35,388 nt of DNA from Herbinix sp. (lineage in GTDB: Bacteria; Bacillota; Clostridia; Lachnospirales; Lachnospiraceae): contig JAQZBD010000064.1 of assembly GCA_029239235.1 (NCBI GenBank), forward strand, positions 1 to 35,388. The letters run 5' to 3'. Shown here in pieces: positions 6,919 through 35,158 of this stretch (position 1 is its first letter; the number at the start of each line of letters is the position of its first letter). The notes under the pieces were generated by a model. The model did no database searches. It had not been told where the DNA came from and saw nothing but the letters and a program-made list of their open reading frames with translations. The position numbers and the translations under genes were made by a program.

Positions 6919-6929
6919 TTAAATAATAT

Positions 6930-7085
6930 GATTCGAGAGTCAAAAGTCAGATTTAGACATTGTGCTGACTATGTATGTATATATATCCATCTGGACTTGC
7001 CTTACCATTCCATGAATTGCCTGAAAAGAAGGCAATTCATAGATGCCGGTCTGCGCCATCTGGATATATTTTTGACCCTCGAATC
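6930..7085. repeat. dispersed structured element 1, first copy (candidate ncRNA or stem-loop DNA element)
   Basis: The core has two conserved blocks: CATCTGGACTTGCCTTACCA (from 6988) and GATGCCGGTCTGCGCCATCT (from 7042). Between them is a hairpin with stem ATGAATTGCC/GGCAATTCAT. Outside, ATATATCC pairs with GGATATAT (6981-6988 with 7062-7069), then GATTCGAGAGTCAAAA (6930-6945) pairs with 7070-7085 with one mismatch. A side hairpin GTCAG/CTGAC interrupts the left arm. Both blocks recur 28 kb away (34897-34968) with different but still complementary stems. The octamer TGACTATG lies exactly 14 nt before block 1 in both copies. It fills the gap between the solenoid and MoxR genes. The transcribed strand is uncertain and the family is unknown to me. 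Confidence 0.7.
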
Positions 7086-7155
7086 ATAATATACGGTGCA
7101 GCACTAGTGAAAATCCAGCTTATAAAGAAATGTGATGGTGCAAAGAAAGGAGTGT

Positions 7156-7191
7156 ATGACGTATAGACACATAACACGTCATACAGGGTAA
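7156..7191 (+). CDS. possible 11-residue leader peptide upstream of moxR
   Basis: An ATG with an excellent ribosome site (AAAGGAG at 7146-7152) opens an 11-codon frame, MTYRHITRHTG, ending in TAA two bases before the MoxR ATG. The MoxR ATG itself has only a weak AGGG. TATGACGT (7155-7162) can pair with ACGTCATA (7176-7183), which would fold the mini-frame. Translational coupling from this frame into moxR is a plausible inference. The frame could also be chance. Confidence 0.35.
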   Translation: MTYRHITRHTG

Positions 7192-11631: not shown

Positions 11632-11662
11632 TGAGTGTTTAAACAAGGTCTTTGACACTCAA
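11632..11662. other. inverted repeat between convergent genes
   Basis: TTGAGTGT pairs with ACACTCAA across 15 bases. It may be a terminator for the convergent secreted-protein gene, but no T run follows on the minus strand. Confidence 0.35.
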
Positions 11663-11739
11663 ATCATCCTATGATTCGCCCGACAAAAGTCTACATCACC
11701 TCTCAGCCTAAATCTTTCCCATTTGTCGCCTTAATCATC

Positions 11740-34765: not shown

Positions 34766-34872
34766 AATTGTATCCTCCTTATTAACTCCTGATTTTTTTT
34801 ACTATCTTCATTATAGATTTTATACCGTAAAAAGTAAGAGAGATACAAGACAACCGGAGGATTAGGTATTGA

Positions 34873-34992
34873 GATGACTATGCGCTTCTATGTATTCATC
34901 TGGACTTGCCTTACCATCAAGTGTTCGCCAAATGCAGGCGACCACTCGATGCCGGTCTGCGCCATCTGAACACATAGAAGCGCATAGTCATC
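34873..34992. repeat. dispersed structured element 1, second copy
   Basis: A perfect 21-bp terminal stem (34873-34893 with 34972-34992, starting GATGACTATG) closes an internal loop made of CATCTGGACTTGCCTTACCA (from 34897) and GATGCCGGTCTGCGCCATCT (from 34948). An inner hairpin lies between them, with stem GTG-T-TCGCC/GGCGA-C-CAC and an AAATGCA loop. Both blocks are identical to the copy at 6988-7062, and the octamer TGACTATG lies exactly 14 nt before block 1 in both, while the stems differ and still pair. Read on the minus strand, the junction gives CAGAUGG against CCAGAUG, i.e. a tandem G-A/A-G mismatch flanked by true pairs, a common structured-RNA feature. The family is unknown to me. Confidence 0.7.
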
Positions 34993-35067
34993 GCCAAGTG
35001 TATTGAAGACATATAGCTGAATCCTGATGAAGGATATAGATAGATTGTAAAACCAATAAACTTTAGC

Positions 35068-35158
35068 AATTGTATACATAGCATATACTTGTTTGGAGCG
35101 GAAGCTAACCCGAAGGAAACGTTGGAGCAGAGTATTAGTATCTACGTTGTATACAATT
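35068..35158. repeat. dispersed stem-loop motif 2, second copy, inside a larger fold
   Basis: The core at 35091-35120 has GTTT/AAAC closing GG-AGC-GGAA-GCT-AA-CCCGAAGG. It matches the copy at 5949-5980 at nearly every unpaired position while the outer stem differs compensatorily and the tetraloop changes GAAA to GGAA. Around it, ATACT pairs with AGTAT and an 11-bp perfect stem AATTGTATACA/TGTATACAATT (35068-35078 with 35148-35158) closes the whole. It lies upstream of the AraC-type gene and 75 bases from the second copy of element 1. Confidence 0.6.

Follow-up and report, generated by a model that had tools for sequence, protein, structure and literature searches.

A MITE-like mobile repeat of Lachnospiraceae, probably recognised through the fold of one strand

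Introduction

The nearest described kinds of element to the one reported here are the bcr repeats, the Correia elements and the REP elements. In the Bacillus cereus group, bcr1–bcr18 are interspersed intergenic repeats, among which bcr1–bcr3 have been called MITE-like (excerpt of PMC3446304, citing Kristoffersen 2011), while for bcr10 and bcr18 the secondary structure is conserved and an RNA function predicted (PMC3446304). Correia repeat enclosed elements of Neisseria are 69–151 bp long, have inverted ends and a characteristic core, are mostly intergenic, and number slightly more than 100 copies in one species and roughly double in another (excerpt of PMC5039591). REPs are palindromic repeats of 20–40 bp with a terminal GTAG; in the system of GTAG REPs and RAYT tyrosine transposases they are recognised as single-stranded DNA, and residues bordering the loop are important for cleavage (excerpt of PMC3733652).

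Here we describe a repeat family found through two intergenic sites in a contig of Herbinix sp. (JAQZBD010000064.1, positions 1–35,388; hereafter the window, meaning this whole 35,388-nt stretch). Integron attC sites also enter the comparison: they lie behind stop codons, have variable stems with a kept structure, and fold from the bottom (antisense) strand. The broad kind, a mobile repeat, is already known. A description of this particular family we could not find in the literature, and no named family of this kind in Lachnospiraceae appeared among the titles and abstract beginnings searched, which came mostly from papers outside subscription.

Results

Anatomy of the two copies in the window

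The original prediction described two sites, at 6930–7085 and 34873–34992, that share two 21-nt blocks, and both the sites and the exact blocks are present. Block A (CATCTGGACTTGCCTTACCAT) lies at 6988–7008 and 34897–34917, and block B (GATGCCGGTCTGCGCCATCTG) at 7042–7062 and 34948–34968. Read along the minus strand, a full copy consists of P1 (GATTCG...), J1, a stem P2 of ~25 pairs, a core internal loop made of block B and then block A that encloses the terminal hairpin P3, and the mirror image of the outer parts. The covariance-model match is ~126 nt long, and the element with both ends ~170–200 bp. The internal loop is near-invariant and asymmetric, with AGACCGGC opposite GGTAAGGC, and the tandem G-A/A-G step that had been noted between the blocks is readable on the minus strand (CAGATGG / CCAGATG). 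P3 is very variable in length, from almost none (L078) to more than 100 nt including an additional conserved motif (L177, L179, L181).

Copy 1 opens on the plus strand with the left P1 end GATTCGAGAGTCAAAAGTC, a terminal inverted repeat recognised by the family end pattern (6930–6948), and continues through J1 (TTTAG...) and the left P2 arm (6949–6987; alignment A1), block A as one side of the core loop (near-invariant in alignment A2), the P3 hairpin, which is variable but paired according to fold and covariation (7009–7041), block B as the other side of the loop (alignment A2), a remnant of the right P2 arm (7063–7068; alignment A1) and the right P1 end TTTTTGACCCTCGAATC, again by end pattern (7069–7085). 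Outside the inverted ends stands a target-site duplication, ATAATAT at 6923–6929 repeated exactly and directly at 7086–7092. In alignment A1 copy 1 lacks most of its right P2 arm and the adjacent side of J1, and its outer stem is for this reason the terminal repeat P1 (GATTCGAGAGTCAAAA / TTTTGACCCTCGAATC). In copy 2 the predicted fold pairs the left P2 arm (34873–34898) with the right arm (34967–34992) around block A, the P3 hairpin (34918–34947) and block B, so that its outer stem is P2; its P1 ends are unrecognisable in alignment A1. The two outer stems are therefore non-homologous.

Covariance model R2 matched the minus strand, the one on which the fold is kept, at 6960–7085 for copy 1 (E 3.2e-18) and at 34869–34994 for copy 2, over P2, core and P3 (E 3.1e-34), these E-values being rough. 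Against 200 shuffles, the minus-strand fold had z-scores of -8.3 (copy 1) and -11.9 (copy 2), and the plus-strand fold -6.6 and -9.6; folding energy was lower on the minus strand in both copies.

A core-less derivative of the family, found by end-pattern match, occupies 11673–11736 on the plus strand, with ends GATTCGCCCGACAAAAGTC ... CCTTAATC and flanks ATCCTAT / ATCTTAT that differ by one mismatch. A lone right end, GTCTTTGACACTCAAATC (11648–11665), stands directly before it. Between copy 2 and the next gene lies a separate palindromic element (35069–35157) with ends ATTGTATACA / TGTATACAAT. A short hairpin, ATGACGTATAGACACATAACACGTCAT (7156–7182), precedes the AAA ATPase gene, where the related genome G024 has a different short hairpin-like sequence.

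Copy number and distribution

Block A occurs 33 times at up to three mismatches (25 times exactly) in the 4.97 Mb genome that holds the window and not once in a reversed control, so that sharing of the blocks by chance is excluded. The end pattern gave 58 matches at up to three mismatches (reversed control, 3), and a covariance model of 34 copies found at least 62 distinct places in several subfamilies after removal of opposite-strand echoes, with three truncated copies besides. The element had been noted as present twice in the window; both of those copies are real, but they belong to a dispersed mobile family of this size, and its mobility had been missed. Nine core-less derivatives with family ends were also read.

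Beyond this genome, 49 copies were fetched from one genome of the same genus, and a genome of another genus gave 67 model matches with both strands counted. The element matched in 11 of 34 genomes of the genus, when 103 candidates per genome were scored. Wide scans scored eight candidates per genome and are thus insensitive: model R2 matched 5 of 397 genomes in a family sample and another wide scan 4 of 397, the own genome counted in each, while in a class sample of 391 the only match was the own genome. Absence in these multi-genome scans is weak evidence because so few candidates were scored. Element-matching genomes in other genera were G332, G132, G203 and G057.

The exact element pattern had no match in viral contigs; 12 matches to a shorter 16-base pattern all lacked the second block and by eye resembled coding sequence, and a virus-borne element was rejected. 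One distant search each of plasmids and of phages, with a G332 copy and window copy 2 as queries, returned no match. One subfamily of the own genome (L111, L112, L113, L114:4165 and L115–L119) has a small hairpin, TTTACAGAAGCAAGCTTCTGCGG or close to it, inserted next to the core, and this suggests a recent burst. At L096, L011, L110, L102 and L086, two copies stand ~250–1140 bp apart in opposite orientation.

Covariation and strand preference

In the alignment of 34 copies, both partners vary at 31 of 45 pairs, compared with 14.9 ± 2.2 after shuffling, and none of 500 shuffles reached as high; 97.1% of cells pair, against 27–46% with a slid partner. In a set of 42 copies chosen for diversity from several genomes, both partners vary at 26 of 31 pairs, against 15.9 ± 1.8 after shuffling. 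The covariation that the original prediction proposed to check is accordingly well above the shuffled and slid controls, and compensatory change is real across the family, although the two outer stems first compared, P1 in one copy and P2 in the other, do not correspond. Many copies with identical stems had been named as the mark of an ordinary repeat: copies are indeed many, but the stems are not identical and vary pair by pair.

Mismatches in the P2 arms, read on the minus strand, favour G.U over A.C by 80:15 in the 62 own copies and by 99:39 in the 76 copies taken from other genus genomes. A stricter alignment gave 51:9 and 76:22, and 35:9 and 68:22 once the richest position was set aside; 35 of 42 position counts in P2 lean to G.U. 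P3 showed 28:6 in 34 copies, weaker data than for P2, 19 of its 28 G.U coming from one position. P1 had no bias (28:22 in 32 copies), and it differed from P2 with p 0.004, p-values here being optimistic because related copies were treated as independent. These counts bear out the preference for the minus strand. The P2-core-P3 fold is kept on the minus strand, besides the DNA ends, and the core is conserved across genera.

Marks of mobility

The element family is mobile. From 168 places given to a script, 43 copies had readable terminal inverted repeats, paired ends of type GATTCGAGnGTCAAAAGTC. Exact flanking direct repeats of at least 6 bp bordered 13 of these 43, where re-paired flanks predicted 0.5, and repeats of at least 7 bp bordered 8 (0.28 expected); the other 30 had no exact duplication of at least 6 bp. 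The duplication around copy 1 stands outside this test. The family thus has the terminal inverted repeats and target-site duplications of a MITE, and it is short, multi-copy (at least 62 copies) and non-coding, with no inserted gene inside any copy read.

Among 34 genus genomes, both genes that flank copy 1 were matched in four besides the own genome (G024, G005, G004, G029), and in all four they stand side by side without the element. The exact empty site is unreadable at this junction because the spacer has diverged in the relatives.

No autonomous transposon with the same ends appeared among 20 end-pattern regions or among 6 inspected of 14 core matches beyond the known copies (reversed control, 10); the six, drawn from outside eight one-mismatch matches, were the three truncated copies and three apparent chance matches in genes. 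Y1 (HUH) transposase (PF01797) had no match in the element-bearing genomes G024, G005, G026, G030 and G032 and was present in the other 6 of 11, and reverse transcriptase (PF00078) had no match in G007, G023, G026 and G030 (61–89% complete) and was present in the other 7 of 11. The presence of neither tracks the element across the 11 genomes; Y1 transposase was rejected as a partner, and reverse transcriptase is an unlikely one.

Genomic setting and orientation

Among 107 co-directional gaps in three genome sets, 89 hold a copy whose minus strand runs antisense to the genes on either side: 36:6 in the own genome (62 copies), 38:11 in the other genus genomes (76 copies) and 15:1 in G332 (25 copies). 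Shorter flanks left the first two at 35:6 and 36:11. The gene that faces the 3' side of the minus strand has its stop within 50 nt of the model match in 27 of 45 own cases and 19 of 21 in G332, and the median distance from model end to this upstream gene's stop is 41 nt and 26 nt, respectively. On the other side the own-genome median is 177 nt, and just 4 of the 43 own genes come within 50 nt. This position behind stop codons could reflect survival instead of insertion preference. Copy 1 conforms to this setting, with both flanking genes on the plus strand and a stop codon at a distance of 11 nt. The genes around copy 2 are divergent, and this copy stands upstream of the one for class II fructose-bisphosphate aldolase.

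The 265 neighbouring ORFs, called with a simple script, are diverse, their larger clusters being response regulators, ABC transporters and other common families. Some genes have an adjoining copy in two species, each of its own subfamily (L008/L084, L067/L094, L013/L085 at the aldolase gene, L036/L083), which suggests hot spots or concerted evolution; L075 stands in opposite orientation at the gene shared by L067 and L094. Replication fork direction alone does not explain the orientation because copies on one contig (C33 of G024) run in both directions, unless an origin or terminus lies there; two '+' copies inspected on this contig sit between convergent genes and are uninformative on fork direction.

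One-sided tandem arrays

Tandem arrays within 150 nt of the element lie beside 31 copies on the 5' side of the minus strand and beside 4 on the other. The 5' counts are 7 of 62 copies in the own genome, 7 of 76 in other genus genomes and 17 of 25 in G332, with 2, 2 and 0 on the opposite side; further off in G332, 11 array calls are 5' and 7 are 3'. Units beside G332 copies include (TTTTATC)n, (TTTG)n and (CTTGGTCTTGTC)n, and units may change stepwise towards the element, for example from (TTTTAGC)n to (TTTTGGC)n. Long microsatellite-like arrays are, to our knowledge, unusual for a bacterium; in G332 such arrays, with units of 4–16 nt, stand beside element copies at L179, L198, L200, L206, L211 and L215, with a stepwise change of unit in some. 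We infer that the arrays arose from polymerase slippage at a plus-strand hairpin, a retro-element tail being less likely.

Search for known RNA families

The sole Rfam match to the window at the gathering threshold was a tRNA. When both copies and 11 loci were scanned permissively, every match at the element fell below threshold, the best being a microRNA hairpin (30.9 bits against a gathering score of 95), which leaves no convincing weak match; the Rfam check that had been advised thus turned up no family, and identity with a known Rfam RNA was rejected.

Discussion

Both window sites represent, with a probability of roughly 0.55, a single MITE-like mobile repeat of Lachnospiraceae, non-autonomous and recognised via its folded strand. 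The original prediction had listed a structured RNA, a ligand- or protein-binding leader and a DNA element recognised as a folded strand; the last is the best fit, and an RNA is retained beside it. A cis-regulatory leader, including a riboswitch, is unsupported because the neighbours look unrelated, with no visible common function, and the fold is mostly antisense to them. The molecule that folds would be single-stranded DNA or an antisense RNA, and the protein that reads it is putative. In the mechanism that we propose, P1 would serve as double-stranded DNA ends and P2-core-P3 would have to fold as one strand, most likely of single-stranded DNA; a putative mobility protein, supplied in trans, would bind this strand at the internal loop; insertion or survival of copies would occur chiefly right after stop codons, the folded strand running antisense to the gene; and slippage of the polymerase against the plus-strand hairpin would give birth to the one-sided arrays.

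A wider and tentative idea is that the mobility or retention of a bacterial element may depend on the fold of one strand, read at an asymmetric internal loop with stems free to change if they pair, in combination with inverted ends of the conventional sort, a site after stop codons and the birth of arrays on one side. Such an element would be a structure-recognised transposon that is neither of the IS200/REP type nor an integron. The 163 natural variants of one fold examined here (62 from the own genome, 76 from the same genus, 25 from G332) are a resource for finding its reader. As far as we know, few reports combine the marks of a transposon with covariation specific to one strand and with tandem repeats on one side of a hairpin. 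A caution also follows for multi-copy covarying 'RNA candidates' in Lachnospiraceae, which can be mobile repeats.

Other readings share parts of this evidence. The minus strand might instead be transcribed, as an antisense or stand-alone RNA whose core binds a protein or ligand, within a mobile repeat in which P1 would be no more than the transposon end. Tolerance of G.U, like tandem G-A steps, is typical of RNA, the strand bias is found in P2 and P3 and absent from P1, the core is kept across genera, and a simple scan placed two weak minus-strand promoter-like sites just upstream of the folded strand of copy 1 (four weak sites in that region, against 1.7 ± 1.5 in shuffles). The same scan gave no promoter-like site for copy 2 and no terminator-like site for either, a -10-like TATACT is confined, on visual inspection, to some subfamilies, and the antisense orientation and the empty Rfam result also speak against a functional RNA, to which we give about one chance in four in our weighing of the whole.

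The repeat may also be an ordinary MITE whose paired changes come from template switching between the arms during replication, with the fold unselected. Long inverted repeats can undergo arm-to-arm correction, internally deleted copies are common in the family, and P1 lacks a strand bias. However, such correction predicts neither the one-strand excess of G.U over A.C in P2 nor the near-invariant internal loop, and deamination of cytosine on the sense strand would, by reasoning, give the opposite bias; we regard this reading as improbable. Very improbable is a SINE-like retro-element, in which a plus-strand RNA template copied at the target would leave a 3' tandem tail and target duplications of variable length. 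The strict one-sidedness of the near arrays in G332 would suit it, but four element-bearing genomes, though only 61–89% complete, gave no reverse transcriptase match, matched inverted ends with duplications are a trait of DNA transposons, and at L110:1885, the one copy compared, whose array counts just 2.3 units, the array stands beyond the duplication.

The present repeat can finally be set beside the known systems. At the level of general anatomy it resembles integron attC in its site behind stop codons, its kept structure and its folded antisense strand, and it differs in that there are no cassette arrays, the conserved part is mid-stem and copies are scattered beside unrelated genes. Identity with REP/RAYT was rejected: no Y1 transposase matched in five element-bearing genomes, and here the element is ~200 bp long with ends GATTC...GAATC and target duplications, in place of the terminal GTAG and 20–40 bp length described for REPs in the excerpt of PMC3733652. 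Correia elements are alike in inverted ends, a characteristic core, multiple copies and a mostly intergenic place, and they differ in their 26-bp Correia repeat ends and Neisseria host, strand-specific covariation being unmentioned in the passage of PMC5039591 that describes them. The bcr repeats are alike as interspersed intergenic sequences with MITE-like or structured members, in the part of PMC3446304 that covers them; compared by description and not by sequence, the present family differs in uniting mobility marks and a strand-specific fold in one family, in its host family, in its orientation behind stop codons and in its one-sided arrays. From all three nearest kinds, bcr, Correia and REP, the repeat described here is set apart by joining marks of mobility to strand-specific covariation, an orientation behind stop codons and arrays on one side.
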